This document shows positions 710 to 16,452 of a stretch of 20,258 nucleotides of DNA, piece after piece (positions within the stretch are counted from its first letter, which is position 1; every line of letters begins with the position of its first letter). Source of the stretch: a virus; IMG/VR virus record IMGVR_UViG_3300028548_005277, positions 1 through 20,258 of that record; one strand, given 5' to 3'. The notes under the pieces are model-generated. The model was not told the origin of the DNA, ran no database searches, and worked only from the letters and a program-made list of their open reading frames with translations. A program made the translations under genes and the position numbers.

Positions 710-2833
710 CTATACTATTCTATAATTCAAAATCATAGTAGAGTCGTCTGCTAATGTAGCACCAGATTTATTAGTAATACGAACTTTAAATGACCCAGCT
801 ACTACTGTATGAACATCTACATGAACATCTATACTTGCATTTGCTAACACAACAGATGTAGCTAATACTTTATCACTTGTAATTACAACATCTGCATGTT
901 CTGCATCATCAGCTAATGTAGCAGCTAACGTAAGAGTGTGTTTAATTTTAAAATTGTTTGATGTGACTGCACCTGCGCTTGATGCAACATCAGAAGCAAC
1001 AGCAGTATTACCAGCACTTGCATCTAAAATATTAAGTTCAACAGCAGTTGCTGTAACGTCTGTTAAGTCTGTTGAAGCAAGAGTAATATTTGCAGTACCG
1101 TTAAAACTTACACCAGCAATAGTTCTTGCTGTAGCTAATGCGGTTGCTGTTGCAGCAAGACCAACTGCGATATTAGCTGTACCATCAAATGATGTTCCAC
1201 CAATTGTTCTTGCTGTAGCTAATGCGGTTGCCGTCGCCGCTAGTCCTACAGCAATATTTGCCGAACCATTGAATGATGTACCACCAATAGTCCTTGCTGT
1301 TGCAAGTGTAGTTGCTGTATCAGCATTACCTGTAACATCACCAGTTATATCACCAACAAAAGCCGTTGATGTAATACTTGTTGCACCAGTAACTACACCA
1401 GCATCAATGATAATAGCACCATCAAGAACAATCTGTTGTCCAGAAAGTGGTGTAATTAACAAGTCAGTACCAGCAGTTGAACTTAATGTATTACCATTTA
1501 TATTAAGATTATCTACTTGTAATGCAGTAAGAGTTCCTACTGAAGTAATATTTGTTTGAGCTGCTCCAGTAACCGTAGCAGCAGTTCCAGATGCGTTACC
1601 AGTTACGTTACCTGTTAACGCACCAGCAAATAGTGTTGCAGTCAATAAACCACTACTAGCATTAAAAGTTAGATTAGAACCACTCTTCGGGGGCAAATCA
1701 CCTGTTGCAGCAGTTGCAAATAATGGAAAACAAGTTGTATCACTTGATTCATCTGCTACTGTAACAGCAGTACCAACAGATGCCAAAGCAACTGCAATGT
1801 TTCCAGTGCCATCAAAACTAGTTCCACCAATAGTTCTTGCAGTCGCAAGAGCTGTAGCAGTTGCAGCAAGTCCTACAGCAATATTTGCTGTACCATCAAA
1901 TGAGGTTCCACCAATAGTTCTAGCAGTTGCTAATGCTGTTGCTGTTGCAGCAAGACCAGAAGTTGATTGGTTACCAGCAGCATTTACACCGGGCAAATTG
2001 ATATTAGCACTACCATCAAATGATACACCACCAATTGTTCTAGCAGTTGCTAATGCTGTTGCAGTTGCAGCAAGTCCTACAGCAATATTTGATGTACCAT
2101 CAAATGAGGTTCCACCAATAGTTCTAGCAGTAGCAAGTGCTGTTGCGGTTGCGGCAAGTCCGACAGCAATGTTAGCACTACCATCAAATGAGGTTCCACC
2201 AATTGTTCTAGCAGTCTCAAGTATTGTTGCTGTTGCAGCAAGACCAGAAGTTGATTGGTTACCAGCAGAATTTACGCCAGGTAAGTTAATATTAGCAGAA
2301 CCATTAAATGATACGCCACCAATAGTTCTTGCAGTTGCTAATATAGTTGAAGTTGCCGATAAACCTACCGCAATATTAGCACTACCATCAAATGAGGTTC
2401 CACCAATTGTTCTGGCCGTCGCGAGTGTAGTTGCGGTATCTGCGTTACCTGTAACATCACCTGTAACATCGCCTGTAACATCACCAGTAATTGTCCCTGT
2501 TGTTGTTAGATTCTCATTACCAAAAGAAATTGCACCAGAACTATCTGTAATAGAACCAGCAGCTAATGCAAGAGTTCCAGCATTAAAAGTAGTTCCTGTT
2601 AGAGTTGTAATTGTTGCTGATGTTTGCGTTCCAGCAACTACACCTGTAATTGTTGGCGCAGTTAAAGTCACGACTGTCGCAGTTGCACTAATACCACTCG
2701 TCAAAGACGATGCATCTCCAATTAGAGTATAAATCTCTAAGAAGTTGTCATTAATTTTATCAGCAGCTATACGTAGATTATCGCCAGTTCCATCGTCTGC
2801 TGCGCCGCCTATTCCAAGTGATTGATTTGCCAT
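710..2833 (-). CDS. Repeat-rich tail-fibre-like structural protein, copy A (707 aa)
   Basis: The gene starts at the ATG at 2833, with AGGAG about 8 nt upstream. The N-terminus (residues 1-40; ADDGTGDNLR, KINDNFLEIYTLIGD) is the usual leader of marine T4-like phage fibre proteins. Residues 137-356 are seven LATARTIGG repeats, alternating 28- and 40-residue forms. A non-repeated middle (357-509) contains an ADESSDTTCFPLF stretch often seen in marine phage fibres. Residues 510-585 carry three further repeats. The C-terminal part (about 586-707) begins with a TAVELNILD motif and ends in a beta-rich segment that may be the tip or trimerisation domain. No enzymatic motif or cleavage site was seen. 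The gene lies directly after the two gp14 genes and before its own paralogue. The likely role is a trimeric fibre or decoration on the virion; this is inference from sequence character and location. Confidence 0.85.
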   Translation of the reverse strand: MANQSLGIGGAADDGTGDNLRIAADKINDNFLEIYTLIGDASSLTSGISATATVVTLTAPTITGVVAGTQTSATITTLTGTTFNAGTLALAAGSITDSSGAISFGNENLTTTGTITGDVTGDVTGDVTGNADTATTLATARTIGGTSFDGSANIAVGLSATSTILATARTIGGVSFNGSANINLPGVNSAGNQSTSGLAATATILETARTIGGTSFDGSANIAVGLAATATALATARTIGGTSFDGTSNIAVGLAATATALATARTIGGVSFDGSANINLPGVNAAGNQSTSGLAATATALATARTIGGTSFDGTANIAVGLAATATALATARTIGGTSFDGTGNIAVALASVGTAVTVADESSDTTCFPLFATAATGDLPPKSGSNLTFNASSGLLTATLFAGALTGNVTGNASGTAATVTGAAQTNITSVGTLTALQVDNLNINGNTLSSTAGTDLLITPLSGQQIVLDGAIIIDAGVVTGATSITSTAFVGDITGDVTGNADTATTLATARTIGGTSFNGSANIAVGLAATATALATARTIGGTSFDGTANIAVGLAATATALATARTIAGVSFNGTANITLASTDLTDVTATAVELNILDASAGNTAVASDVASSAGAVTSNNFKIKHTLTLAATLADDAEHADVVITSDKVLATSVVLANASIDVHVDVHTVVAGSFKVRITNKSGATLADDSTMILNYRIV
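1079..1306 (-). repeat. Second fibre repeat block in copy A (3 units)
   Basis: It encodes residues 510-585: two 28-residue LATARTIGG units and a terminal variant with IAGVSFNG. It is separated from the larger block by about 150 residues of non-repeated sequence. Confidence 0.85.
1766..2425 (-). repeat. Main fibre repeat block in copy A (7 units)
   Basis: It encodes residues 137-356 in the order short, long, short, short, long, short, short (28 or 40 residues, i.e. 84 or 120 bp). Units share LATARTIGG, SFDGSANI and, in the long form, LPGVN...GNQSTSGL. DNA similarity between units is high, so the block is prone to recombination or copy-number change. Confidence 0.88.
2447..2482 (-). repeat. 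12-bp tandem repeat, three copies
   Basis: Three head-to-tail 12-base units (plus-strand form acctgtaacatc, third copy with one changed base) encode consecutive VTGD units just before the main repeat block. The paralogue at 1-699 has a single VTGN unit at the same place, so copy number differs between the two genes. Confidence 0.85.
2535..2587. repeat. Direct repeat copy 2 (53 bp) shared by the two fibre genes
   Basis: It is identical to 401-453 at an offset of 2134 bp, in the homologous part of the neighbouring fibre gene. Confidence 0.85.
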
Positions 2834-2877: not shown

Positions 2878-3825
2878 TCATGTAGGATCACCAAATGGAT
2901 TAGATTCTGCGAAGTCCAAGACTGCATCATCTAATTTATCAAACAATTCATTTTGTGCAGTTTTGTCATTCACATAATCACCAATATAATATTCTTCCTG
3001 TAATAAATAATCGTTAGTTCCTGTTTCAAGAATAATACTTTCACCGACAGAAGTACTATCATTTTCACCTATGATATTATCACTATCTGTTTCGTCTAAT
3101 AATAAACCTCTAGTTGTTGCAGTATCATGAATTCTGATAGATTCGTTTACTGCACTTGATTGTTCTAAAGTGAATTGATATATAAGAGCATTTGTTGAAA
3201 GCGCATCTTCTATATCATCAATCGCAGAAATGCCCGTATCCAACATTTCAGAACTATAATCAAATGTACGACATTGTAATTTATATGTAGGGTTATTATC
3301 TAATTGATTAAAAGATGCATCATGATCAACAAAATTAACAATAAACAATTTTTCCAAAATGGGGTGATAAATTAAGTCGCCTTCTAATGGTCTATCTGAA
3401 TCTGTTGCATCAGTTTCATTTAGAATGTAATATGTTTCACCTTGTAATGTAGATATTGATATTGTTCCAGATTCTAAAAGTATAGCACCACCTGTTGTAT
3501 CCGTACCACTTTCAATTGTAATTTGTTTTGTTAATTCTTGAAATCTATTTTTTGATACAACGAAGGTTATATCACTCAGATTTTGCAATCCAAATTTATT
3601 CATCAATTCAAGTTCGCCGGAATAACCACCTTCAGCATTCTCAACGTACATTTCAATTTTAGCAGAAGAGCTGAATTTTGAAAGTGTATCTTCTCCAAGA
3701 ACATTATCTTCTGCTACAATAGTTCTATCAATATAATGAACATCATGGCCATGAATTTGAATTGCTTCTGCAACCAAGTTGGCATATAGTGATTGTTCAG
3801 CTGTAATTATTTGACCTGTAGTCAT
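2878..3825 (-). CDS. Neck protein gp14-like, second copy (315 aa)
   Basis: This is a homologue of T4 gp14, a head-completion/neck protein that acts with gp13 at the portal to prepare the DNA-filled head for tail joining. Family features are the N-terminal helix with SLYANLVAEAI, the DRTIVAEDNVLGED segment, IEMYVEN, the FGLQNLSDITFVVS strand, the RPLEGDLIYHP motif and FVDHD...F. The C-terminus (EEYYIGDYVNDKTAQNELFDKLDD) is nearly identical to that of the upstream copy. It lacks the MAVNKHF N-terminal extension of the first copy and differs strongly between residues about 210 and 265. The start overlaps the upstream stop by one base (TAATG), with AGGGAG before it. A second gp14 is not part of the T4 gene set. 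Whether both copies enter virions is unknown. Confidence 0.85.
   Translation of the reverse strand: MTTGQIITAEQSLYANLVAEAIQIHGHDVHYIDRTIVAEDNVLGEDTLSKFSSSAKIEMYVENAEGGYSGELELMNKFGLQNLSDITFVVSKNRFQELTKQITIESGTDTTGGAILLESGTISISTLQGETYYILNETDATDSDRPLEGDLIYHPILEKLFIVNFVDHDASFNQLDNNPTYKLQCRTFDYSSEMLDTGISAIDDIEDALSTNALIYQFTLEQSSAVNESIRIHDTATTRGLLLDETDSDNIIGENDSTSVGESIILETGTNDYLLQEEYYIGDYVNDKTAQNELFDKLDDAVLDFAESNPFGDPT
2918..2997. repeat. 80-bp perfect direct repeat, copy 1 (3' end of second gp14)
   Basis: Base-by-base comparison shows identity with 3874-3953 over 80 bp at a 956-bp offset. It encodes the conserved C-terminal segment of both gp14 copies (EEYYIGDYVNDK ... LDDAVL). Confidence 0.9.
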
Positions 3826-4838
3826 TAGTTTAAACTCCCTACATCACCAAATGGATTAGATTCTGAAAAATCTAAGACTGCATCATCTAATTTATCAAAC
3901 AATTCATTTTGTGCAGTTTTGTCATTCACATAATCACCAATATAATATTCTTCAGTTATAATATATTGATTACTACCAGTTTCAAGTAGTATACTACCAC
4001 TAATTACATTCAAAGACTCTATGTCAGCTATTGTTGCATCTGCTGTGACATTAGTTGTATCTGATGTAAGAGATATATTATCTGATGTTATAACTGTTAC
4101 TGTAAATTCACTTTCAAGACGAATCTGGTATTCAGAACTTGAAGTCGAAAGCGCATCTTCAATTGCATCAATTTCACTAATACCTGTATCCAACACTTCA
4201 GAACTATAATCAAATGTACGACAACGCATTTTGTATACTGGATTGCTGTCTAATTGATGAAAAGGATCGTCGTGGTCAACAAAATTAATCTCAAACAATT
4301 TCTTTAAAGTTGGATGATAAATTACATCACCCTCTAATGGCCTATCCAAATCTGTTGCATCAGTTTCATTTGAAATATAAAATACTTCACTACTAGAAAT
4401 TGCAATTGTACCAGATTCTAATTGGATAGAACCAGACGATGTTAAGTCTGTTGCCGTTTCTATTTCTATTTGTTTTGTTTTTTCTTGAAACTTTTTCTTA
4501 CTTACAACGAAGGTTGCTTCACTAAGGTTCTGCAAACCAAATTTATTCATCAATTCAAGTTCGCCAGAATAACCACCAGAAGAATCTTCCATATACATTT
4601 CAATGGAAGCTTGCTTATTAAATTTGGATAGTGCATCTTCGCCAAAAACATTGTCTTCTGCAACTAATGTACGATCAAGATAAAATACAGAATGTCCTCT
4701 ATGATGAATAGCTTCTGCAACTAAATCAGCATATAAAGATTTCTCCACTTGCAAGTGCGAACGCCATTGCCAAGCACGAGGTTGGTCAGCTGTGGCAGCA
4801 GCAAGTCCAGGCGAATGAAAATGTTTATTAACCGCCAT
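3825..4838 (-). CDS. 14: Neck protein gp14-like, first copy (337 aa)
   Basis: The protein has the gp14 pattern of marine T4-like phages. It starts MAVNKHF, and then has SLYADLVAEAI, DRTLVAEDNVFGED, IEMYMED, FGLQNLSEATFVVS, RPLEGDVIYHP, FVDHDDPFHQL, CRTFDYSSE and the EEYYIGDYVND C-terminus. T4 gp14 is about 256 residues; the extra length here lies in the short SGxIxLExGT-type segments around 140 and in the variable region near 230-285. It follows gp13 by 3 nt, with AGGG overlapping the gp13 stop, the usual 13-14 order. The product should sit in the neck between portal and tail. Because it has the family N-terminus and lies next to gp13, it is the better candidate for the canonical gp14 of the pair. 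Confidence 0.9.
   Translation of the reverse strand: MAVNKHFHSPGLAAATADQPRAWQWRSHLQVEKSLYADLVAEAIHHRGHSVFYLDRTLVAEDNVFGEDALSKFNKQASIEMYMEDSSGGYSGELELMNKFGLQNLSEATFVVSKKKFQEKTKQIEIETATDLTSSGSIQLESGTIAISSSEVFYISNETDATDLDRPLEGDVIYHPTLKKLFEINFVDHDDPFHQLDSNPVYKMRCRTFDYSSEVLDTGISEIDAIEDALSTSSSEYQIRLESEFTVTVITSDNISLTSDTTNVTADATIADIESLNVISGSILLETGSNQYIITEEYYIGDYVNDKTAQNELFDKLDDAVLDFSESNPFGDVGSLN
3874..3953. repeat. 80-bp perfect direct repeat, copy 2 (3' end of first gp14)
   Basis: It is identical to 2918-2997. The flanking parts of the two genes are much more diverged, so this block looks recently homogenised or under strong constraint. Confidence 0.9.
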
Positions 4839-4841
4839 AAA

Positions 4842-5663
4842 TTACCCTATCATATAATTAACTGGCAATTCAAACGTAAGTTGAATTTGTTCTTCCAACT
4901 TATTAATCTCTTCCTGTGCTTGTGAATAAATACTTTCACCATTCATAGTAACACCACCAAGCATAGCAATACCACTGAACTTGGATAAGTTTGCACCCCA
5001 CTGTTGCTTAATAAGAGCAGTTGCATATCTTTTTAGGAAAATATCATCAAAAATATCTGTGAATGTTGCTGGGTCTATTTTGCGATAACATTCTGCAATG
5101 ATATAATCTTCACCAGCAACAAAATCATTTGACCAATCTCCGTCAATGTAAAGACGATTTTGATGTTGGTTAAATCGAATTGGTTTTTCACCAACAAGAA
5201 TATGTTCTAAAAGGTCTAGATTACCCATTGCCATCTGATACTCAACAATAGAAGTAGAGGATAGGTCATATAAGTCATTAAGGCGCAACTGGTAACGAAC
5301 ATCAAACATGCTAGAACCACCACCTATACCTGAGAACGGCCAAACCTGTATCACTGACACAACAGCAGAAGGCATTGGAATAAAATTACTACCTTCTAGA
5401 AATGTATCAGTAATAGTACTATCTACTGAATCAGTTCCAATTGTGGATACATTTGTTTTTCCTCGGGCAATATCTGCTTCAGTAATTAGATGTTTGAGAT
5501 ACATTTTCTCAATGCCATCATAATGATATTGAGCAAAATACTGAAGAGCTTCATCAATGCGATCATCTGCCTGATCATCTGATACGTTAATATCGATGAC
5601 ACCAGAACCCAATGCTCTCAGGCAATACGATTTAAATGTTGATTTGCTTGTGGGTATGGCCAT
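4842..5663 (-). CDS. 13: Neck protein gp13 (273 aa)
   Basis: This is a homologue of T4 gp13 (309 aa), the head-completion protein that binds the portal after DNA packaging and, with gp14, forms the neck to which the tail attaches. The N-terminal signature of marine T4-like gp13 is clear: AIPTSKSTFKSYCLRALG, then INVSDDQADDRIDEALQYF and YHYDGIEKMYLKH (residues 2-60). Further on are VVSVIQVWPF (about 104-113), the RLNDLYDL region, the strand around RLYIDGDW and the helical C-terminus IYSQAQEEINKLEEQIQ. The start is ATG at 5663 with AAAGGA upstream. A perfect late-promoter box lies 20 nt before the start, so gp13 probably opens a late transcript that also carries both gp14 genes and the fibres. 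Confidence 0.92.
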   Translation of the reverse strand: MAIPTSKSTFKSYCLRALGSGVIDINVSDDQADDRIDEALQYFAQYHYDGIEKMYLKHLITEADIARGKTNVSTIGTDSVDSTITDTFLEGSNFIPMPSAVVSVIQVWPFSGIGGGSSMFDVRYQLRLNDLYDLSSTSIVEYQMAMGNLDLLEHILVGEKPIRFNQHQNRLYIDGDWSNDFVAGEDYIIAECYRKIDPATFTDIFDDIFLKRYATALIKQQWGANLSKFSGIAMLGGVTMNGESIYSQAQEEINKLEEQIQLTFELPVNYMIG

Positions 5664-5683: not shown

Positions 5684-5691
5684 TATTTATA
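5684..5691 (-). promoter_or_regulatory. T4-type late promoter box (TATAAATA)
   Basis: The minus strand carries an exact TATAAATA, the T4 late-promoter element recognised by RNA polymerase with gp55/gp33 and the sliding clamp. It ends 20 nt before the gp13 ATG, leaving room for a start point and the AAAGGA ribosome site. It overlaps the TAA stop of the acetyltransferase gene. It is the only perfect copy I found just upstream of a gene in this window. Confidence 0.75.
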
Positions 5692-6166
5692 AGATTTGTT
5701 TTATTGCAATACAATTTGGACCATATTCTAAATCATTTTTCCATTTAGACCATTGTTTTAATCCTACATTTTCATATGCAGGCAATGCAGTTTTTCTAGG
5801 AACCGTCCATATCCAAGTTCCATTATTTTCCTTTGCATACTTTATAGTTTCGAGTAATATTAAAGAAGCATATCCCTTTCTACGACATTCTGGGTCTGTC
5901 CATAAACCTCTTGATCTAAAATATATAGAATCTTCCCAAACATTACTCATATAACAACTGTTGACTGATACAAGTTTATCATCTTCATATATTCCAAAGA
6001 AAACAGGAGATACATTCATATCATAGTTTGAACCAAAAGATCTACCCGGATATTTCCATGTCCATTTATTAAATGGTTTAACTCCAGATTTTTTATTTGG
6101 CCACAAATATTTTTCCCATATAAATTTAATTTCTTCCCATGTTATATTCTCTACAGAATTATGCAT
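5687..6166 (-). CDS. GNAT-family N-acetyltransferase (159 aa)
   Basis: The GNAT acetyl-CoA-binding motif A is visible at about residues 83-104: RGLWTDPECRRKGYASLIL, with the R-R-K-G-Y-A pyrophosphate loop. It is followed by the motif-B-like ALPAYENVGLK (127-137). Such enzymes move an acetyl group from acetyl-CoA to an amine (amino sugar, amino acid or protein N-terminus/Lys); the acceptor cannot be told from the sequence. The chosen start is the ATG at 6166, which overlaps the end of the upstream glycosyltransferase by 8 nt and has GGGAAG before it. An upstream ATG at 6190 lacks a ribosome site, and the frame from 6223 would lie deep inside the glycosyltransferase gene. It is the last gene of the enzyme cassette, so acetylation of a sugar or of the modified product is a reasonable guess. 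Confidence 0.85.
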   Translation of the reverse strand: MHNSVENITWEEIKFIWEKYLWPNKKSGVKPFNKWTWKYPGRSFGSNYDMNVSPVFFGIYEDDKLVSVNSCYMSNVWEDSIYFRSRGLWTDPECRRKGYASLILLETIKYAKENNGTWIWTVPRKTALPAYENVGLKQWSKWKNDLEYGPNCIAIKQIL

Positions 6167-6860
6167 GATTTTTATAATCTTCCCATTCATGTGGCTTGTT
6201 GTTTCTGTGTGTAAAATGAACAAATTTTATATCAGGATGAAATTCACCACCCAAATAAATATAATCATTTCCTGTTATTTTTCTATATTTATTTGTTATT
6301 TGAATCTGCCATTTAGTCATATCCTTACCATAATTAATATCTTCATTTACAACCCATCGTGTAAACCAACTTTCTGGTAACGTAATAAGTTCTAATCTTT
6401 CTTTAACAGAATCTTCAACAAAATATTGTTCTCCATTTACTGGACCGGCAGTGGTTTTATTGTCTATATAATATCTCTGCCAACCATGTATATTTGACAT
6501 AAATTTATCAAAGATATAACGACAATCTTTTGGATAGTATTTAAAAAATCCACCATTAATAACATAGTTATTTTTAATTGTATCTCTCCACCAACCTGGC
6601 ATTGCAATAAATTGGCCAGGATTTACAGGATACTCAAATATTTTTTCATAGTCATTCATCAACAAAATATCAATGTCTATCATACAAATTGGTTCGTCAA
6701 TATCCAGTTGCATTCCCCACATCTTGTTCCATTGTAAAGTTACTTTTTGGTTATAGGGTTCTCTTATCCATACAATTTCATACTTGGATAATTTATTTTC
6801 CAAATATTTTTCATATTCTGGACCATACTTATCACCTATTCTAACTGCAAATATTTTCAT
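6159..6860 (-). CDS. GT-A-type glycosyltransferase 2 (233 aa)
   Basis: The protein begins KIFAVRIGDKYG and has a D-I-D metal/nucleotide-sugar-binding motif in CMIDIDILL (residues 62-64). It then has a conserved YVINGGFFKYY segment (about 118-128) and an HFTHRNNKPHEW C-terminal motif resembling the HFxGxxKPW motif of GT8-like enzymes. It should transfer a sugar from a nucleotide sugar to an unknown acceptor in the cytoplasm; no signal peptide or membrane segment is seen. The start is set at the ATG at 6860, which overlaps the TGA of the upstream oxygenase (ATGA). The open frame extends back to 6920, but those 20 residues are unlike the family and lie inside the neighbour. Its first 13 residues resemble those of the other glycosyltransferase in the cassette (IxxxxWGDKYG-like), which suggests related enzymes. 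Confidence 0.83.
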   Translation of the reverse strand: MKIFAVRIGDKYGPEYEKYLENKLSKYEIVWIREPYNQKVTLQWNKMWGMQLDIDEPICMIDIDILLMNDYEKIFEYPVNPGQFIAMPGWWRDTIKNNYVINGGFFKYYPKDCRYIFDKFMSNIHGWQRYYIDNKTTAGPVNGEQYFVEDSVKERLELITLPESWFTRWVVNEDINYGKDMTKWQIQITNKYRKITGNDYIYLGGEFHPDIKFVHFTHRNNKPHEWEDYKNHA

Positions 6861-7687
6861 GGTGCATAAGGAAAAATCATCTTTGATTTTATCATGTCTA
6901 TAGGTTGAACACCAAACCACTTATTTTTTTTCCATTCCCCTCCTTTTTTTTCAAACCAAGTCATGAATCCAGCAACAATATGAAGTCTTGGTTTTGTTGC
7001 ATTACCTGTATCTCTAACTCTATGTTGTATTTTAGTGTTCCAAAAATATACTTTACCAACTTCCAAATGTTTTGTTAATGTCAAAGAATTGCCCCAATCA
7101 TCTGTACCATCAATTTCTAAAACATATGATGGTTCTGTAATTAAAGGAATATTAAATCTAATTGCAGACCACATAATTTCATCTAAATGCCAATTTTGTT
7201 CATATCCTGGATGTGCCCACATAACTCTTGACCTTGTGGGTTGTAAATCAAAACAATCTAGAAATTCTTTGTAATGTTTTTGAACAACAGGATGAACCGT
7301 ATTAAATCCATATGTATCATAATAAGTGTCTTTGTCAGTTTCCCAAGGAGGATTTGGATTATTGTTTCGCGAATAAGCCCAGTTCAATTCTGGATGACCA
7401 AGACTTGCATATGGACTTTGAAGATGTTCATCTCCATCTGGATTTATACAAATACTAAACCCTTTGTATTTTTCTGATTCTTTATTGTTTTTTTGCCATC
7501 CCTTTATGCCTCCAATCTCATCGGATATTTTTAGAGTCTGTTTATATAACCACTCAGCTGATGGCAAACCCAATTCTTCTAGAGTAAATTCAAAAAAGTT
7601 TTTTTCAAGTTTTGGTTCATATATACTGGATGCATTATATTTTTTATCCAACTCATTAGATACCGGAATTTTATTTTCTATTATCAT
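6857..7687 (-). CDS. Aspartyl/asparaginyl beta-hydroxylase-like 2OG-Fe(II) oxygenase 2 (276 aa)
   Basis: The double-stranded beta-helix oxygenase residues are in place: the H-x-D iron ligands in QNWHLDE (H167, D169), the distal histidine in KIQHRVRD (H222) and the 2-oxoglutarate-binding arginine in KPRLHIVAG (R234). The segments between, RFNIPLI and LEVGKVYFWNT, fit the same fold. Such enzymes hydroxylate Asp/Asn side chains or small molecules using O2 and 2-oxoglutarate. The N-terminal 130 residues are specific to this type and contain GFSICINPDGDEH and SLGHPELNWAYSR. The start is ATG at 7687, 6 nt after the upstream stop; the end overlaps the glycosyltransferase start. It shares only the fold and metal residues with the oxygenase at 9043-9732, so the two are unlikely to be recent duplicates. 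The substrate is unknown. Confidence 0.85.
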   Translation of the reverse strand: MIIENKIPVSNELDKKYNASSIYEPKLEKNFFEFTLEELGLPSAEWLYKQTLKISDEIGGIKGWQKNNKESEKYKGFSICINPDGDEHLQSPYASLGHPELNWAYSRNNNPNPPWETDKDTYYDTYGFNTVHPVVQKHYKEFLDCFDLQPTRSRVMWAHPGYEQNWHLDEIMWSAIRFNIPLITEPSYVLEIDGTDDWGNSLTLTKHLEVGKVYFWNTKIQHRVRDTGNATKPRLHIVAGFMTWFEKKGGEWKKNKWFGVQPIDMIKSKMIFPYAP

Positions 7688-7693
7688 TAGATG

Positions 7694-9043
7694 TTATCTC
7701 TTACTGAAATATTGTAGATGTTGTTTAGTTGGTCTAGTTCCCATGAACAGATAATATTCTGAATAGCTAAGTGTCTTGTGTAGTATATTAAAAGACCTAA
7801 CTAATGCATCTAAAGTATAAACTGAATGTGAAATATGATAACTAAAAATATTACTAGTATTAAATAAAACTTTTTTACCCTCAATTTTGTTTTTAAGTTT
7901 TTTATAATCAGGTTTTATTAAATCCATTATCCAATATTCTATATCATATGTGTCTCTCATTTTTTTCTGAAGAGTTCTAAGATACTCAAAGTCACCGTAT
8001 GTTTTTGCTCTGTTATGCAAAATATTAGCTTGCGAACTTTGAGATATATTTTTTGTAAAATTAAACGATTGATTTATATATCCAGAATATTTTTTTATTT
8101 CTTCCATAGACATATTCATTTCAACAATGTTCTCTTTAATTGTAACATTGTTTTGAGTATAATCATAAAATACAATCTCTCCATTAAAATTTAATTTTTC
8201 AATTAAAACTTCTGTCACATAACCAGCTGTTGGTGAAAAAATAATATCAAATTTTTCATCAGGTAAATTCTCAGAAATTGATCCTAAACTCATAGTGTTT
8301 TCAACATAGAATGTACTTTTTAATCTATCACAGGTTGTTTTAAAATAATTATCATCATCTAATTCATCATAATATCCTTTTTTTCTGTTCTTGAGAATTT
8401 TCCAATTTCTATTTTGAATTTTTGTTCTATTTTGTATATTATTATATGAGAATGATTTAACTCTTCTATCGTTATCATCAAAATTAAAAACAGTTGGTAT
8501 GTTCTCTGGTGTTATCCAATGTGGAGTATAATCATCGTGATAATTTTTATCTGATTTTTCATAATTTTTCCATTTCTCAAAAATAAATGGTTTTTTTAAT
8601 TCTCTCCACACATCAAGATTTATTTCTACATGCTGATGATGTAAATATGCTGGTTTATCAGGTTTTGCAATTATATGTCCTTTACACCATTTTGTTGTTT
8701 CCTTTGCAAAATCATAAAAACTTTCAATTGAAGTTTTAAATGCAGTCATAGAAAAAGTCATACCAACAGTTACAATCATAGCATGAGTGTATTCGTCACA
8801 ATCATTAAGAATATTAAATATTTCACTTGTATAACAAAGTATTTGATTGTGGCCGGTTCCTGCTCCAGTAAGGCCACCAGAAGTTTGCAAACATGTAGTT
8901 TGTGTTTGTTTCTCTACACCAAAATCCCATTCTACATTATCAGGATACATTATAATGAAAACAAGATTTTTTGTATTTTTTTTTATTTTTATATCGGAAG
9001 ATTCTTTTATCCAAAGACTTTTGAAATCTTCAAAGTTTTTCAT
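7694..9043 (-). CDS. Unrecognised two-part protein of the enzyme cassette (449 aa)
   Basis: I do not recognise a named family. Residues 26-150 look like an alpha/beta domain: a hydrophobic strand NLVFIIMYP, a glycine-rich SGGLTGAGTGHNQ loop (55-66), DCDEYTHAMIVTVGM, then GHIIAKP...YLHHQHVEINLDVW (122-146). That last segment is reminiscent of acceptor-side regions of some glycosyltransferases. Residues about 155-235 are charged and A+T-rich. From about 264 a Rossmann-like segment follows: FDIIFSPTAGYVTEVL, then NGEIVFYDYTQNNV, suggestive of a methyltransferase or nucleotide-sugar fold. Near the C-terminus are VLFNTSNIFSYHISHSV and YYLFMGTRPTKQHLQYF. No DXD motif and no transmembrane segment were seen. 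The start overlaps the preceding stop (TAATG). Its central place between two oxygenases suggests a role in the same modification pathway. Function is not assigned. Confidence 0.75.
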   Translation of the reverse strand: MKNFEDFKSLWIKESSDIKIKKNTKNLVFIIMYPDNVEWDFGVEKQTQTTCLQTSGGLTGAGTGHNQILCYTSEIFNILNDCDEYTHAMIVTVGMTFSMTAFKTSIESFYDFAKETTKWCKGHIIAKPDKPAYLHHQHVEINLDVWRELKKPFIFEKWKNYEKSDKNYHDDYTPHWITPENIPTVFNFDDNDRRVKSFSYNNIQNRTKIQNRNWKILKNRKKGYYDELDDDNYFKTTCDRLKSTFYVENTMSLGSISENLPDEKFDIIFSPTAGYVTEVLIEKLNFNGEIVFYDYTQNNVTIKENIVEMNMSMEEIKKYSGYINQSFNFTKNISQSSQANILHNRAKTYGDFEYLRTLQKKMRDTYDIEYWIMDLIKPDYKKLKNKIEGKKVLFNTSNIFSYHISHSVYTLDALVRSFNILHKTLSYSEYYLFMGTRPTKQHLQYFSKR

Positions 9044-9732
9044 TAATCCAATTCCCTTAATACGTCCTTACCAAACTGTTTGACCATAGACCGTTTCATC
9101 AATTCAATTCTTTCCTTATTTGATCCACCATGAACAATAAAATGAAAACGATTTTCAGATGAACTATTTAGTGCTTCATGAGTGACTCCATTATCAAACC
9201 AAAATCCAGTGCAGTTATCAAAGGGCAATTCTTCCTTTGTATCTACTCTTCTCAGATAACAATTTTCTGGTTGATAGATTGCTAAATTAATAGCAGCAGA
9301 TATATTTCTTTGTCTACCTTCGTTTATTCTTTTATCACTAGCATCATGATGAGCATTAATACTTCCACCGGGCTTTATTAACATGAACCGACAACGCCTG
9401 TAATGTTTATGTGGAAAATCTTCCAACCACCTCTTCATCTCTGGCGCAACTTCAGCAACTTCAGTCCATCCCCACTTCACTGTATCTTCGGTATAATCAT
9501 GACCAGTTGGATTCATAGTATTGCGCCAACCCAAAGACGTATCAATTTCATTCTCATGAACAAATCCATGTATTGAAGAAGAAAACCATTCACCACCATC
9601 TTGTAGTCTATGCTCTACAAAAAATCCTTCATCATATACTGTTTGGGCTTCTTTAATGATTACCTCTGGTATTTCTAAATCTATTTTTAGATACCAAATA
9701 TCATTTTTCCTACACCATTCTATTGGATTCAT
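9043..9732 (-). CDS. Aspartyl/asparaginyl beta-hydroxylase-like 2OG-Fe(II) oxygenase 1 (229 aa)
   Basis: Iron ligands appear as H-x-D in SINAHHDAS (H128, D130) and the distal histidine in NGVTHEALN (H185). The arginine in SSENRFHFIVHG (R195) is in the place that binds 2-oxoglutarate. Flanking features typical of the family are CRFMLIKPGG before the H-x-D and AAINLAIY and FWFDNG between the ligands. The expected reaction is hydroxylation of an Asp/Asn side chain or a small molecule with O2 and 2-oxoglutarate. Related oxygenases are common among marine T4-like phages, but their substrates are mostly unknown. The start ATG at 9732 overlaps the methyltransferase stop by four bases (ATGA), and its own stop shares a base with the next start. 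It is cytoplasmic, with no signal peptide. Confidence 0.87.
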   Translation of the reverse strand: MNPIEWCRKNDIWYLKIDLEIPEVIIKEAQTVYDEGFFVEHRLQDGGEWFSSSIHGFVHENEIDTSLGWRNTMNPTGHDYTEDTVKWGWTEVAEVAPEMKRWLEDFPHKHYRRCRFMLIKPGGSINAHHDASDKRINEGRQRNISAAINLAIYQPENCYLRRVDTKEELPFDNCTGFWFDNGVTHEALNSSSENRFHFIVHGGSNKERIELMKRSMVKQFGKDVLRELD

Positions 9733-10361
9733 CTTCCAATAACCATGTATCTTGTCATACCATTAGATAATTGTTTTTCGCCGCTATACATTACATCAAC
9801 CATATTGGCTTGATCAGTTAATTCATCAACACTATCCACACAATTAATATGATCATCATATTGTCTGTCATTGGATGATTGTAATATATATAGAGGATTT
9901 TTTAAAATCGATTCATTTATTTTTCTAAATTTCCACATTGGATACATATGCTCACATGAACAATTGATTATCGTATCTTCACCGTATTGTATTTTATGTA
10001 TTTTATCAAACATAACATTTCTAATTCGTATTTTATATTTTTCTTCTTCTTTATATCTTTTATTAAATTTATAACTTAGTTGTTTAACATTCTGATCAAT
10101 TTCAAAGTTTTCTACCCACTCTACAGATTCAAAATTATCATACAAAAGAGGAACGATATATTGTGCAAACCACCCAGCAAGTATTGCAACTCTTTTTGGT
10201 TTAATTTCTAACTTAATTAATTCTTGGATTATCCACAACTTACTTTCTAATTGAGATTGATTCATAGAATCCATTGCTCGTTTGAACAAATATGATTCTG
10301 AATTTGATAATGCGTTTTTCCAATCGTTAGCTAACTCAGGTGTATATTTTAAATATTCCAT
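9729..10361 (-). CDS. Class I SAM-dependent methyltransferase-like protein (210 aa)
   Basis: A Rossmann-type motif I is seen as RVAILAGWFAQYIVPLL (residues 57-73). It is followed by an acidic strand end ENFEIDQNVKQL (84-95) and a DTIINCSCEHM strand and loop (129-139). Near the end come LYILQSSNDRQYDDHINCVDS and VMYSGE...MTRYMVIGR. This combination (INxSCEHM, QSxN, HINCV, YSGE, IG at the end) is a pattern I know from phage proteins annotated as SAM methyltransferases in marine T4-like genomes. The glycine-rich loop is poorer in glycine than in canonical enzymes (AGWFA), so activity should be checked. The acceptor is unknown. The gene overlaps the upstream glycosyltransferase by 13 nt and the downstream oxygenase by 4 nt, indicating coupled translation. 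Confidence 0.75.
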   Translation of the reverse strand: MEYLKYTPELANDWKNALSNSESYLFKRAMDSMNQSQLESKLWIIQELIKLEIKPKRVAILAGWFAQYIVPLLYDNFESVEWVENFEIDQNVKQLSYKFNKRYKEEEKYKIRIRNVMFDKIHKIQYGEDTIINCSCEHMYPMWKFRKINESILKNPLYILQSSNDRQYDDHINCVDSVDELTDQANMVDVMYSGEKQLSNGMTRYMVIGR

Positions 10362-11056
10362 AAAGATTTTAACTCTTCAACATCATTAGTTTCTCCACTA
10401 TTATTAAACAGACAAACTTTGCATTCTTTACGTAATTTTTTAGATTCAATATCGTCAGGAAATACGTTTCCTTTATACCAAGAATAAATATCTCCAATAG
10501 GAAAAACATTAAAGAAAGATTTATCTCCATACATATCATAGAAGAAATGGTTTAGATAATTATCTATAGTTGGATATGTGAAAAATATAGTGTCTATATT
10601 TTTTTCAATATGATTATATACTTCTATTAATTGATTACTATTCCACCGAATGATGGATGAGTTTATTGGTGTAGATTTAAACCTTGCGAAGTTTTTTTTA
10701 CATACTTCAATATCATTCCACCACCCATGAACAATCCAAGGATTATCCATAGGTAATTCAAAGAAATATTTTAAGTCTTGGTGAATAATTACATCAAGGT
10801 CAAGGTATAAAAAGTTTTTACCTGTGATGCCGAGTTGGCTTTCATTAAACATATAAAATTTTCTATATGCCCAAAACTTTCCATTTTCATAGGAGTCCCA
10901 AGTTGTGGGAAGTTGCCGGTCATAATCTTCTGTCGGTTTATCTGTTAAACAATAAAAATTAAAAGGAACTGAACAGTTCTTTTCGCATTGTTGTTTCAGT
11001 TTCTCAACGTATTTTTTACCATACTTATCGCCCCAATTAACACATAATATATTCAT
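10349..11056 (-). CDS. GT-A-type glycosyltransferase 1 (235 aa)
   Basis: The N-terminus MNILCVNWGDKYG and the strand FNFYCLTDKP (residues 33-41) are followed by WAYRKFYMF and the metal-binding D-L-D of FLYLDLDVIIH (86-88). This is the usual order of a nucleotide-diphospho-sugar transferase of the GT8-like/GT-A group. Downstream, a PINSSIIRWN segment (about 130-139) corresponds to the conserved region after the DXD, and the C-terminus carries CKVCLFNNSGETND where relatives have a His-containing substrate loop. It should add a sugar to an unidentified acceptor in the cytoplasm. The start at 11056 has AGAGGA upstream in a 15-nt gap. It is the first gene of the enzyme cassette and resembles the glycosyltransferase at 6159-6860 in its opening residues. 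Confidence 0.82.
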   Translation of the reverse strand: MNILCVNWGDKYGKKYVEKLKQQCEKNCSVPFNFYCLTDKPTEDYDRQLPTTWDSYENGKFWAYRKFYMFNESQLGITGKNFLYLDLDVIIHQDLKYFFELPMDNPWIVHGWWNDIEVCKKNFARFKSTPINSSIIRWNSNQLIEVYNHIEKNIDTIFFTYPTIDNYLNHFFYDMYGDKSFFNVFPIGDIYSWYKGNVFPDDIESKKLRKECKVCLFNNSGETNDVEELKSLWNI

Positions 11057-11071
11057 AATATAAATCCTCTT

Positions 11072-11551
11072 TTAGAAAAATGATGCGTATGCTTTAATAG
11101 CCTCCAGTGGAGTTTCTGCTTTACGAATATCAGTTTTTGATGTTCTTTTTTTGCTTTTCTTCACAACTTCTTGTTCAAACATTTTTAATTTTAATTTAAA
11201 AAGAGTATCTTTATGATCATTATTTTCTGAATTAAATTCAAAAATAATATTCAAACTATCATTTTGATTTACGCCATGATCAGATTCAATATTATTTCTT
11301 TGAGCATAATCATTAAAAGCTTCCCTAAATTCCTCACGAAACTCTTCATGACGAACCTGAGTACGTTTATCTATATCCTCATAAGAAACTTCTTTTGCAA
11401 AATCTCTCCACTGCTCATCTGCTTCATCTACCAAAATGTAATGTTCTCTAACAAGACCATCATCTGGGTTCGTCCACAAAACTGCAACAGTATCCAGTTC
11501 TGGATTGCTGTAATAATAATCTGTAATTTTATCTGACCATGAATATGACAT
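11072..11551 (-). CDS. Conserved hypothetical phage protein (159 aa)
   Basis: The protein is acidic in the first 115 residues (SWSDKITDYYYSNPELDTVAVLW, then a long EEFREEFREAFNDYAQ helix at about 68-85). It ends with a basic patch VVKKSKKRTSKTD (133-145) and a TPLEAIKAYASFF C-terminal helix. Similar short proteins with a KxxIRKAxTPxExxKAY ending occur in T4-like marine phages, from memory, without assigned function. No catalytic motif, signal peptide or membrane segment is seen. It lies between the last tail/fibre gene and the enzyme cassette, with a GGGAG ribosome site and a 27-nt upstream gap. It could belong to either module; a structural accessory or chaperone role is only a guess. Confidence 0.75.
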   Translation of the reverse strand: MSYSWSDKITDYYYSNPELDTVAVLWTNPDDGLVREHYILVDEADEQWRDFAKEVSYEDIDKRTQVRHEEFREEFREAFNDYAQRNNIESDHGVNQNDSLNIIFEFNSENNDHKDTLFKLKLKMFEQEVVKKSKKRTSKTDIRKAETPLEAIKAYASFF

Positions 11552-11578: not shown

Positions 11579-12523
11579 TTAACCACCTTTAGCAATTCTA
11601 AGATTATAGGTTGTTATTGTTGCTGCTGAACCATCTGGAAATTCCTGTGAACGATAATCATCACCAACTTGTCTCCTTGTATAATTACCATTACCATTAA
11701 GACGAGTATCAACTATAGCAGTTCCTCTTGTGGCACCACCAGACGTTGCCATTGTGTATACAATTTTTTGGCCACTAGTATTAGCAGTATCAAAACGTAT
11801 CCAATTTCCTATGAGACTTTTCATAGTGGCAGTGGCACCTTCTATCAGGTTGGCGTCACCATCGATAAGTAAAAGGTTTCTTGATGGAGTGCTATCTGCA
11901 CCATCCCTTCTGTGAAGAAAGTAATTCGTTATTGTTGTTGGTTGATCAAGTGTCTCTGGAATACCAGCAGAACTATACGCACCCACGTCTGCGCGTGTAT
12001 CAGTGAATATTGCGGTAGTAGATACATTAGTATATCCTGATGCTGCTGATGAAGATGTAGTAACAGTATAAGTTCCACCCGTATTGTTTGATTCTGAGCT
12101 TGCTATCATTAGATCAATCGCAGGTTCAACAAAAGTATCTTTAAAATCTGCAAGATTCATTGCAACAATCGACCCACTACCATCATAATAAACTGGCATA
12201 GTTATTCCATTATCAGCAGTTTGGCCAACCCCACTTGTAGTATACGTATTATCAACCCTGTCATATGAAACTGTTACTGTTCCCGGTTCAGCAGTAGAAC
12301 TTTCAGCAACATAAGCATCATTGGCTTGTGATGTGGCACCAGCTTTCTTTCTCGTATCAGACATAGCAGCAAGATCACCCGCCGAACTACTACTAACTGT
12401 AAGTACAGCAGTTGGTCCACTGGCGTAAACAAAAATTGCTGCAGCTTGCCATTCAACAATTTCGCCAGCAGTCATCTCTTGAAGATTTCCACTATTAAAC
12501 CATAGAGGTGATCTAGCAGTCAT
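11579..12523 (-). CDS. Virion structural protein of the tail/fibre region (314 aa)
   Basis: The opening MTARSPLWFNSGNLQEMT, then SDTRKKAG, then AEPGTVTVSYDRV (about residues 78-90) match a protein type I know from T4-like marine phages in the fibre region. It is usually labelled a structural or hypothetical protein. The remainder is Ser/Thr/Gly-rich and beta-like (YTVTTSSSAASGYTNVSTT, FTDTRADVGAYSS, TNYFLHRRDG, RNLLLIDGD, GNWIRFDT). It ends in an NLRIAKGG tail. No enzymatic residues are evident. The start at 12523 follows the preceding stop by 9 nt and lacks a good Shine-Dalgarno sequence, so it may be translated by coupling. The exact place in the virion is unknown; a fibre-associated or hinge role is inferred from neighbours. 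Confidence 0.75.
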   Translation of the reverse strand: MTARSPLWFNSGNLQEMTAGEIVEWQAAAIFVYASGPTAVLTVSSSSAGDLAAMSDTRKKAGATSQANDAYVAESSTAEPGTVTVSYDRVDNTYTTSGVGQTADNGITMPVYYDGSGSIVAMNLADFKDTFVEPAIDLMIASSESNNTGGTYTVTTSSSAASGYTNVSTTAIFTDTRADVGAYSSAGIPETLDQPTTITNYFLHRRDGADSTPSRNLLLIDGDANLIEGATATMKSLIGNWIRFDTANTSGQKIVYTMATSGGATRGTAIVDTRLNGNGNYTRRQVGDDYRSQEFPDGSAATITTYNLRIAKGG

Positions 12524-12532
12524 TGTATTTAT

Positions 12533-12856
12533 TTACCATGGAACCGCAGCGCTTGTAGGTGATACGGGAGGTGTGATCATAGAATTAATTTGTCCTTCCA
12601 CACATGATTGTGCACTAGTTATTCCGTTTGTACCGAGTTCAACATTAACCCATCCTAAAACAGCAGATTGTGTTAAACTAGCGTAAGCTACAAAAGTAGC
12701 GCTACTTACTTCGGTAAATTTAACAAATCCATCTATCTCAGCAGTGCGGGTGCCGTCGGTGCCGCTGCACAACCAATGTGCGCTTACAACAAAGTTTTCG
12801 GATGGTGACTGTAAAACGGACATGTCTTTAACAGTCCAAGTGTATGTAATTGCCAT
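12533..12856 (-). CDS. DUF7936-like phage protein (107 aa)
   Basis: This small protein begins MAITYTWTVKDM. It then has VVSAHWLCSGTDG, FTEV, FVAYASLTQSAVLGWVNVELG (residues about 56-76), VEGQINSMI and a proline-rich tail PPVSPTSAAVPW. This is the usual layout of a small family (DUF7936) found beside tail-fibre genes in many marine phages. The alternating hydrophobic strands plus one amphipathic helix suggest a compact virion-associated domain; no catalytic residues are seen. The start at 12856 is supported by AGAAGGATAG, which overlaps the stop of the S74 fibre gene. Function is unknown. Its position suggests a fibre-associated or structural role. Confidence 0.75.
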   Translation of the reverse strand: MAITYTWTVKDMSVLQSPSENFVVSAHWLCSGTDGTRTAEIDGFVKFTEVSSATFVAYASLTQSAVLGWVNVELGTNGITSAQSCVEGQINSMITPPVSPTSAAVPW

Positions 12857-14016: not shown

Positions 14017-16452
14017 TTATGTTGCCAATGCTATTGCCCTAAAATTTTTGATTCTAGGAGGTGATGCTGAATTAGTTGTTTGCATAACAATTTTAATTGA
14101 GAATGCAATAAACGGATCCAACTCTTGACCAAGACCATCATCAGTAACACCAGCAGTATATAGATGTTCACGAAAATCATTTATGCTTCTTGATGCACCT
14201 ACAGCTAAATCAGGACTGCCATCAGTGTTAAAATATCTCCAACCCAATTCTTTAAAATTAGAATCATCATCTTCTCTCAATATTTTGTAAAGAAGTTTAA
14301 TTTCTCCATTTGAATCTTTATTTCCATCAAAAAATACTTTCAGTGCAGTTGCTCTTTGTGCAAGATTAACTTGTTTTATTATATATACTGCTTCGTTATT
14401 ATCACCAAAAGATTCTGTAGAATCATTATATTCGCTTGTTGGATATACATCAGATGATGAATCAATGTTATTAACTCTGTTTCCAACAGCAATCATTGAC
14501 ATTCTTTCACTATCAATGAAAGGAGATATATTTGATGATTGTGATGTTAATGTTAAATCTAATGCTAAAGATTTTTCAGAAGACATTTCATTATCTTGGT
14601 TAATATCAGAAGCTACCAAATATGGAACATCATAATAAACATTTTCATTTAATGGTATATTGAGAGAATTTGAAACCGTAGTCTTTGTAAACGAAGTCTG
14701 TGCACCACTTGGACTTGTTGCTGTTGATGGTCTTTTCTTTGCAACAATAGTTGTGCCGGGAAGTTCAATCCCATTAATTTGAGATTTACCAAGTTCATAT
14801 AAAATATTTTCTGTGGCAGTTATAGAATTTCCACCATTTTGTGCATGAGTAGTTCCAGTGCTATCGATAACAGCACTACTTGTTACTGTGATAGTATAAC
14901 TATCAATTCCAATATTGCCGATTGATGTATGAGTTGTATTAATTTCTGTAAATGGAATTTTGTGTAACATATACAATTCAACCGTAGCACCTGCGGCATG
15001 AGATACAGCAGTAGTTGAGTTTGTACCTCTAGTTGCACCACTAATAGTATTTGTACTAATTGAAGTATAGGTTATGATTTCATCATCAATTTTTATATAA
15101 TATACGTTAGATGTATCTCTAGAGAATTTTCCTGAAGTATCATCAAAATTTGTACCAGAAGCCAAAACAATAGTAGTGTCATCCACATCTATTGCTGTCG
15201 ATAATGTTGTGCTTGCACCAGACTTTACACCATCAATAGTTACATTATTAGTTGTAACATACATTTGATGGTCGCGATGTCGCACTTGAATCACAGCACT
15301 ACCATCTAAGAAAATCAAAGGATGTTTTGACAAAGATTTAGTTGGGTTACTAGCATTCACCAAAGGAATTGTACCAGTCAATGGACTAAACTCTGCTCTA
15401 TACAAATTGAATTTCAAATCTTCAGTTAATGAAGGTGCCCAAGTTCTATTGTTATGTCCTTTAAACAAAACACCCATCGCTGGTTGTTTTGAAACTGTTC
15501 TTTCTGAAAACAAAACATTTGTTGCAGATGTAGAAGTGCCACCAGTTTGTGCTTGTGCTAATGTAGATTGGATTTCTGTTTCTCCCAACCTTGCAATCCA
15601 CACTTTGTATGTTGGAACATTAGCAATTACGACAATACAATATTCAAGGTTTGCTTGAAGATAAACTAGAGAATTAAATTTAAAATTTGTGGCTACTTGT
15701 GCAGTTACATCTATTGTAACATCAACAGGATCTTTAACCACTCTACTAAATGGCACAACTCGTGCTCCGGGAAATCCATTACTAACTTCTCTAATTTCTA
15801 CAGTAACAGGAAGAGTGTCATCTTTTGATTCAAAGAAAAGATCGCAACTTGTTAAAAATATTCCCCCAACTTTATCAATTAAGAAAGTTTGTGCTAATGG
15901 ATCGTCGCCGTCCGCATCACTGGGTGAGTCATCGAGGCCTTCACTGCTTAGAGAGCTGCTTTGTGAAACAGATGTTCTTCTTATTTCTGCGTTTCTAGTA
16001 GCAATAATAGTTTCTTGTTCAGTCCGAAGAACACCAACTGCTTGATAATTTGATTCTCCAGCAGTAATAGGATCAACAGAAGTTATATTTGTTGGGCTTG
16101 AAGTTAATCGAAAAGAAATTTCACCAGTTCTAAATTTAGGATTGCCTTTAATTTTAGGATCAGGTATACTAAAAACACCTTTGATTCTACCACTGGCACT
16201 AGTTACGAGAGCATCACCATTTATCAAACTTGCATCGTTTGCCGAAAATCCAGCTAAAGGTTTTGTATGTTCAGCAACCCCCGTTACATCAAAGAACGGA
16301 TAAACTTGTGTGTTAGGAAGAAAATCAAATCCTTCAAAATTGATATTACTTGCTCTAACAAAAGGAATCATTGCTGTTGACAATACTTTTGTTCCTATAG
16401 TTTCTGAATCAATTTTTTCAACGACACCTGTTATGATACGTGGACGTGCCAT
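14017..16452 (-). CDS. Structural (baseplate/tail) protein, C-terminal half of the DUF4815-type architecture (811 aa)
   Basis: The start at 16452 has AAAGGAG. The N-terminal stretch STAMIPFVRASNINFEGFDFLPNTQVYPFFD (residues 25-55) corresponds to the IPFxR...F...G..PNT.VY.FFD motif that in many marine phages lies inside one very long DUF4815 protein. A Ser/Asp-rich acidic linker (165-184) precedes DPLAQTFLID (184-193), the GIFLTSCDLFF strand and VTVEIREVSNGFPG, another hallmark of that family. Residues 411-496 form an inserted beta module with IKIDDEIITYTSIS, SGATRG and AVSHAAG, a unit often found in phage tail proteins. The C-terminal third (about 600-811) has VYPTSEYND and LKVFFDGNKDSNGEIKLLYKIL followed by a carbohydrate-module-like fold. 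It should be a baseplate or tail-periphery component, acting with the upstream protein. Exact T4 equivalence (gp10-like by gene order) is inferred. Confidence 0.8.
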   Translation of the reverse strand: MARPRIITGVVEKIDSETIGTKVLSTAMIPFVRASNINFEGFDFLPNTQVYPFFDVTGVAEHTKPLAGFSANDASLINGDALVTSASGRIKGVFSIPDPKIKGNPKFRTGEISFRLTSSPTNITSVDPITAGESNYQAVGVLRTEQETIIATRNAEIRRTSVSQSSSLSSEGLDDSPSDADGDDPLAQTFLIDKVGGIFLTSCDLFFESKDDTLPVTVEIREVSNGFPGARVVPFSRVVKDPVDVTIDVTAQVATNFKFNSLVYLQANLEYCIVVIANVPTYKVWIARLGETEIQSTLAQAQTGGTSTSATNVLFSERTVSKQPAMGVLFKGHNNRTWAPSLTEDLKFNLYRAEFSPLTGTIPLVNASNPTKSLSKHPLIFLDGSAVIQVRHRDHQMYVTTNNVTIDGVKSGASTTLSTAIDVDDTTIVLASGTNFDDTSGKFSRDTSNVYYIKIDDEIITYTSISTNTISGATRGTNSTTAVSHAAGATVELYMLHKIPFTEINTTHTSIGNIGIDSYTITVTSSAVIDSTGTTHAQNGGNSITATENILYELGKSQINGIELPGTTIVAKKRPSTATSPSGAQTSFTKTTVSNSLNIPLNENVYYDVPYLVASDINQDNEMSSEKSLALDLTLTSQSSNISPFIDSERMSMIAVGNRVNNIDSSSDVYPTSEYNDSTESFGDNNEAVYIIKQVNLAQRATALKVFFDGNKDSNGEIKLLYKILREDDDSNFKELGWRYFNTDGSPDLAVGASRSINDFREHLYTAGVTDDGLGQELDPFIAFSIKIVMQTTNSASPPRIKNFRAIALAT

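Follow-up and report, generated by a model that had tools for sequence, protein, structure and literature searches.

Background

SAR11 myophages are widespread large marine viruses. Their host recognition cluster (HRC) is defined as the island between VrlC and gp14, and in the available text of the literature it has so far been read in aggregate as lipopolysaccharide (LPS) genes plus fibres (PMC7029224). That study describes the island as hypervariable, lists tail fibres, glycosyltransferases of GT8 type and radical-SAM cassettes in it, and names an Asp/Asn beta-hydroxylase as core to all (Zaragoza-Solas et al. 2020). Here, a locus at the same site in the same kind of phage was analysed. The window comprised 20,258 bases, the whole of the IMG/VR virus record IMGVR_UViG_3300028548_005277, and the wider phage genome lies outside it. 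Seven tightly packed genes on the minus strand (5687–11056) were found, flanked by fibre-like genes on one side and by the neck gene gp13 on the other; they are named G, F, E, D, C, B and A in transcription order, with I and H upstream and gp13 downstream. Five of them, G-F-E-D-B, were shown to be a conserved ordered core, and homologues of E and D were found fused in bacteria. The site and the gene types were already known; what appears to be new is the ordered module, together with protein D and the E-D fusions.

The gp13 protein (phrog_211, E-value 2.3e-41) was closest to that of Pelagibacter phage HTVC008M (68% identity), with 64% identity to that of methylophage Melnitz. The carrier phage is a Pelagibacter-type T4-like myophage, and the hosts of the module-bearing viruses are probably SAR11, the commonest bacteria of the ocean. 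An open reading frame (ORF) of the window, N (16484–20257), was homologous to VrlC of the cultured phage Mosig (873 bits), which together with gp13 and gp14 places the module genes within the pelagimyophage HRC. The corresponding site holds clusters of other 2-oxoglutarate (2OG)-Fe(II) oxygenases in HTVC008M and Mosig and fibres only in Melnitz, showing it to be a known hotspot. A tblastn search of 50,697 phage records gave no match for C, D, E or B; of the module and neighbour genes, only I and F had homologues in isolated phages in the phage-record search, both in Mosig.

Conserved gene order

Viral contigs were scanned with E, C, D, I and gp13 as queries. The 277 viral loci found were reduced to 117 non-redundant groups by merging loci that shared 1.5 kb at 95% identity; the queries were mostly module genes, so the group counts are not frequencies among all phages. 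F followed G in 48/48 groups, E followed F in 44/60, D followed E in 43/45 and B followed D in 51/55, and the order G-F-E-D-B was kept in independent contigs with protein identities down to about 45%. These five genes are the conserved core, with a linkage far beyond chance. C followed D in 15/52 groups and A followed B in 25/57. A stood directly before gp13 in 32/35 groups and lacked B upstream in 11/34, which shows it to be a neighbour of gp13 rather than a gene of the module. In many contigs from the gp13 scan the module was absent and gp13 was immediately preceded by a structural gene.

The initial annotation had described the seven ORFs between the fibre and neck genes, and their coordinates and junctions were reproduced exactly: a 13-nucleotide overlap (G/F), ATGA (F/E), TAATG (E/D), a 6-nucleotide gap (D/C), ATGA (C/B) and an 8-nucleotide overlap (B/A). 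B and A in fact begin at internal ATGs, B at 6860 rather than at the GTG of 6920, and A at 6166. The test suggested there, whether the order recurs in other phages, came out positively for the core across the 117 groups, but not for C or A. Nor were the genes scattered without linkage, an outcome also considered there: G-F, E-D and D-B were linked in 90–100% of groups, and C and A behaved independently. The linkage of C and A was too weak for a seven-gene unit, which was therefore rejected, and a single pathway for all seven was likewise not supported, C being replaceable and A adjoining gp13 even where the module is absent. Nor is the suggested combination of two hydroxylases and two glycosyltransferases supported, since only E of the two oxygenases is core.

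Among relatives of the module genes the median ratio of nonsynonymous to synonymous substitution rates was 0.07–0.17, and that of E and B (about 0.075) equalled that of gp13. The module genes are therefore real and under purifying selection. A Flavobacteriales metagenome-assembled genome (MAG) contig (L066; CAJWSQ010000087.1) contained an entire phage module together with gp13 and gp14 and looks like a mis-binned phage contig.

Fibre-like genes and late promoter motifs

H and I were found upstream of G in 64/66 loci (loci unmerged), and I and H adjoined each other in 53/54 groups. The pair also accompanies the module in other contexts (L051, L080, L131). I had no match in family, PDB or PHROG searches. 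The association with fibres put forward initially was thus retained in that the gene constantly found upstream is fibre-like; the Thr-rich long fibres beyond gp13/gp14, then named as candidate substrates, are replaced by I as the likely fibre partner.

A T4-type late motif was scanned for as NATAAATA within −80 to +20 of the gene start, counted per group. It was found at K in 45/49 groups, at gp13 in 70/76 (64 as TATAAATA, a form with 0 occurrences before G, F, E, D and B), at I in 21/58 and at H in 21/53. The corresponding counts were 1/42 at G, 0/50 at F, 0/45 at E and 3/50 at D, with chance estimated at about 6% at this composition. The motif was present at B in 11/54 groups; among those listed, all lay at one position inside an upstream gene. 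With the motif at K, gp13, I and H and chance level at G, F, E and D, the module appears to be read from upstream late promoters with the structural genes. Judged by these motifs, it is probably transcribed late, from the promoters of the fibre-like genes, and a single late transcription unit is likely; the stoichiometric co-production put forward initially gained no support.

Protein D and bacterial E-D fusions

Pfam, PHROG and PDB searches gave no sequence match for D. Its structure was modelled with a mean predicted local distance difference test (pLDDT) score of 89.7 and two domains. Residues ~20–240 resemble a GT-A fold (LARGE1, Z 8.8 over ~160–169 residues; Foldseek E-value ~1e-3, with a low template-modelling score), and residues ~217–449 resemble an S-adenosylmethionine (SAM)-dependent methyltransferase (OvoA, Z 10.6; NNMT, ~9.8). 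LH3 was a weak match in the fold search, which gave no full-length match in PDB; full-length matches were found only in BFVD, to three unnamed phage proteins. The motifs GHI, HxQ and HDDYTP were invariant and common to phage and bacterial members. The Z-values are moderate and make the fold of D a good lead rather than proof of activity; a catalytic role of D is thus predicted from the model.

D homologues were found in 5/129 genomes of the class to which a Halobacteriovoraceae MAG belongs. In Bdellovibrionota, E and D were fused in the order E-D in three loci (L142, L143, L144) and D-E in one (L068), and were adjacent in another (L067); carbamoyltransferase or radical-SAM genes lay near the homologues in L067, L068 and L144. 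That the two are fused in either order argues strongly for a common substrate of E and D, without telling which. A functional tie between a hydroxylase and a transferase-like protein had been anticipated in the initial annotation, and the fusions bear it out. The L144 fusion (7256–10474; 1072 amino acids) carries an extra N-terminal domain, a homologue of which is encoded directly beside the L143 fusion; this domain is possibly a third partner of E-D.

Predicted functions of the other proteins

G matched phrog_1962 (glycosyltransferase, 4.6e-6) and, weakly and below the cut-off, PF01501 (GT8; E-value 0.01); its DxD motif (D86/D88) was invariant among 15 relatives. B had no family match of its own and matched G in a profile comparison (91%), with an invariant DxD at D82/D84. 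By these sequence features, G and B are predicted to be related GT-A enzymes. F had no match in the sequence-family search. Its AlphaFold model (pLDDT 82) gave 723 PDB matches at E-value ≤ 0.001, the best being NodS (Z 14.4 over 166 residues) and NTMT1 (Z 14.1); on this model F has the Rossmann fold of class I SAM-methyltransferases and is predicted to bind SAM and to methylate.

E matched PF05118 (E-value 7.9e-9; 36 bits, cut-off 22.6), and its 2OG-Fe(II) residues HxD...H...R (H128, D130, H185, R195) were invariant in 20 relatives, so that E is a bona fide member of this family and a predicted hydroxylase. For C, the invariant HxD...H...R motif (H167, D169, H222, R234; 12 relatives) points to a putative oxygenase; searches with 12 members gave no Pfam, PDB or profile match, and C was not classed with E since an E-to-C profile comparison gave no significant match. 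A matched the GNAT family PF00583 (1.4e-7; 32.3 bits, cut-off 20.7) as well as GNATs in PDB. PDB sequence searches of D, C, F, G, B and I gave nothing useful. Hydrophobic, membrane-like segments were absent from all seven proteins.

Variable genes and exchange

The position between D and B was occupied by C, by x9 (PF05118), by x15 or by no gene. In relatives, radical-SAM genes (x2, x7/x12) or an oxygenase (x8) were found between E and D, and a carbamoyltransferase (x6) and an SGNH-like gene (x3) between H and G; the extra genes include carbamoyltransferase, radical SAM/SPASM, PF05118 and 2OG-FeII_Oxy_5 oxygenases. One branch carries x17, PP-loop-like by inspection, in place of A. Between phages with about 97% identity in the rest of the sequence, x9 had taken the place of C and most of D. 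In L048, with a flank 98% identical, E and D were jointly deleted in frame; the loss leaves a very short ORF near 3540 and may be real strain variation or an assembly effect. E was found alone before gp13 in L033–L035. A related lineage and Mosig carry a divergent version of the module beside I-H on the opposite strand, with an epimerase and a DegT aminotransferase. In several loci (L093:17044–18972, L134:12880–15816 and similar) three or four minus-strand genes precede A and gp13, encoding an APH-like kinase and weakly sulfotransferase-like proteins.

Other features of the window

The features of the locus are listed in Table 1. Besides, gp14 (head closure Hc2) is present as a tandem duplicate (2878–3825 and 3825–4838, minus strand), each copy matching phrog_460 at about 2e-61. 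The VrlC-like protein (phrog_358, 2056 positions) is apparently split into N and a second minus-strand ORF (14017–16452), compared with a single gene of 2045 amino acids in Mosig. The adjacent long fibre genes (1–699 and 710–2833, minus strand) have near-identical starts and repeated ARTIGGxSFDGxANI units.

Table 1. Genes and promoter motifs of the module and its borders in the window
Feature	Coordinates	Strand	Basis or remark
gp13, neck / head-tail adaptor	4842..5663	-	phrog_211 match; downstream border of module
TATAAATA, T4-type late promoter motif	5684..5691	-	directly before gp13; marks end of module transcription unit
A, GNAT acetyltransferase	5687..6166	-	PF00583; linked to gp13, not module
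B, second predicted GT-A glycosyltransferase, core gene 5	6159..6860	-	DxD, profile match to G
C, second, accessory putative oxygenase	6857..7687	-	motif only
D, new family, 449 aa, two-domain model, core gene 4	7694..9043	-	predicted structure
E, Asp/Asn beta-hydroxylase-family 2OG-Fe(II) oxygenase, core gene 3	9043..9732	-	PF05118
F, predicted class I SAM-methyltransferase fold, core gene 2	9729..10361	-	AlphaFold model, PDB fold matches
G, predicted GT-A glycosyltransferase (GT8-like), core gene 1	10349..11056	-	phrog_1962, DxD
H, 159-aa protein between I and module	11072..11551	-	position, conserved linkage
I, 314-aa Ser/Thr-rich fibre-like protein, candidate substrate	11579..12523	-	constant upstream neighbour
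AATAAATA, possible late promoter motif of I-H-module	12526..12533	-	directly before I

Discussion

Real, constrained genes, a conserved order, a late-promoter layout, E-D fusions and modelled folds were observed. We tentatively read the locus, with a probability of about 40%, as a late, cytosolic tailoring module that decorates a glycoconjugate, probably on the linked fibre-like protein I. In this reading, the five core enzymes would build up a small glycan, or a group resembling one, and modify it, with E hydroxylating and D transferring sugar and/or methyl on one shared substrate, and the variable neighbours (the C/x9/x15 oxygenases, carbamoyltransferase, radical-SAM and SGNH-like proteins) would diversify this group. 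The likeliest carrier would be I, the product of the same late transcript, so that the host-contact fibre of the virion would be decorated with a strain-specific chemistry. Support comes from the G-F-E-D-B order, the I/H linkage, the promoter layout, the fusions and the joint loss of E and D in L048, and further from the purifying selection, the lack of membrane segments and the extra tailoring genes in relatives.

Several observations weigh against this reading. No DxD was found at the expected strand in the alignment of the D family, which makes a transferase activity of D uncertain. I-H occurs without the module in L154–L157 (as I-H-A-gp13), by which a strict rule that I-H occurs only with the module was rejected, and in L176, L181 and L186 I is present while H and the module are absent. 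The glycan genes lie beside I-H but on the other strand in the related lineage and in Mosig, so co-transcription is not universal. Finally, in the available text the glycosyltransferases of the HRC are read by the published authors as host-LPS enzymes (PMC7029224).

That published proposal is the basis of the main rival explanation, which is nearly as probable. Here the module would remodel a host surface glycan or lipid of LPS type late in infection, so that superinfection is blocked or progeny are kept from re-adsorbing to debris. G and B would be LPS-type glycosyltransferases, as the GT8-like G suggests, and E an LpxO-like lipid or sugar hydroxylase. The substrates of PF05118 include lipids, with lipid hydroxylases such as LpxO among the members of this Asp/Asn beta-hydroxylase family (PMC5767591), and the NAD-epimerase and DegT aminotransferase of the related islands make sugar nucleotides. 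However, the promoter layout is late, not early, and common to structural genes, the linkage to the fibre-like I-H is constant, and no membrane-anchored or export component or hydrophobic segment was found in the seven proteins; the E-D genes of L142 and L143 also lie without obvious surface-polysaccharide genes within about 17 kb. An improbable alternative is the production of a small molecule or modified peptide resembling a natural product. The 2OG oxygenases, methyl-, glycosyl-, acetyl- and carbamoyltransferases and radical-SAM/SPASM proteins of the relatives form a typical tailoring set, and E-D lies near radical-SAM genes in Bdellovibrionota, but position and timing suit structural genes better, and neither a scaffold-forming enzyme nor a short, conserved peptide precursor was noticed in the module, no systematic search for either having been made.

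The hypervariable island, the independence of C and A, the exchange of D with the second oxygenase between otherwise nearly identical phages and the solitary E before gp13 would suit independently useful cargo, with the order explained by hitch-hiking on the fibre genes I-H; linkage of the G-F, E-D and D-B pairs over deep divergence and the bacterial fusions leave little probability for this. Some pairs of 2OG oxygenase and glycosyltransferase act on DNA. Modification of nucleic acid (phage DNA or tRNA) is nevertheless very improbable here, E and x9 belonging to PF05118 and not to the TET/JBP-type oxygenases, with a late promoter layout and a linked fibre-like gene. A more specific version of the decoration of I, by analogy with collagen, is rather unlikely as a whole: E would oxidise side chains of I, and the hydroxyls so formed would carry a methylated glycan put together by D, G, B and F, with strain-specific finishing. 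D would then be a new bifunctional transferase family common to the bacterial E-D fusion enzymes. The underlying idea of hydroxylation followed by glycosylation is possible, being compatible with the data and strengthened by the fusions.

With the ordered module, the new family D, the bacterial fusions and the fibre link, a set of genes becomes a chemical pathway that can be tested. Should the fibre prove to be the target, the chemistry of the virion would take part in phage-host recognition in the ocean.

Comparison with known systems

In its available text, the HRC study (PMC7029224) treats the island as a whole and calls it non-syntenic; no mention was found there of the G-F-E-D-B order or its link to I-H, of protein D, of the promoter layout or of the E-D fusion. 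In Mosig EXVC030M (MT647606), cultured on HTCC1062, homologues of I and H, the former being Mosig_00097, lie beside divergent homologues of F, B and G, and the island also holds carbamoyltransferase, radical-SAM, SGNH-like and Asp_Arg_Hydrox genes. Mosig differs in the strand of the module and in the added epimerase and aminotransferase, and D was not found there. LpxO, a lipid A/ornithine-lipid hydroxylase, acts on acyl chains in the membrane, whereas E has no hydrophobic segment. The mycobacteriophages Che8 and Rita, for which the available text reports phage-encoded glycosyltransferases and covalent virion glycans (PMC11256854), are a precedent for decoration of the virion; the genes and hosts differ, and a hydroxylase step is not reported in that text. 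LH3 and mimivirus L230 each combine a 2OG hydroxylase with a GT-A transferase that act in sequence (PMC6082870, PMC9546862). E belongs to PF05118 and not to the collagen lysyl-hydroxylase family, D differs by its methyltransferase-like half, and the phage genes are separate, with no collagen substrate; the likeness of E-D to LH3 and L230 is one of principle rather than of family.

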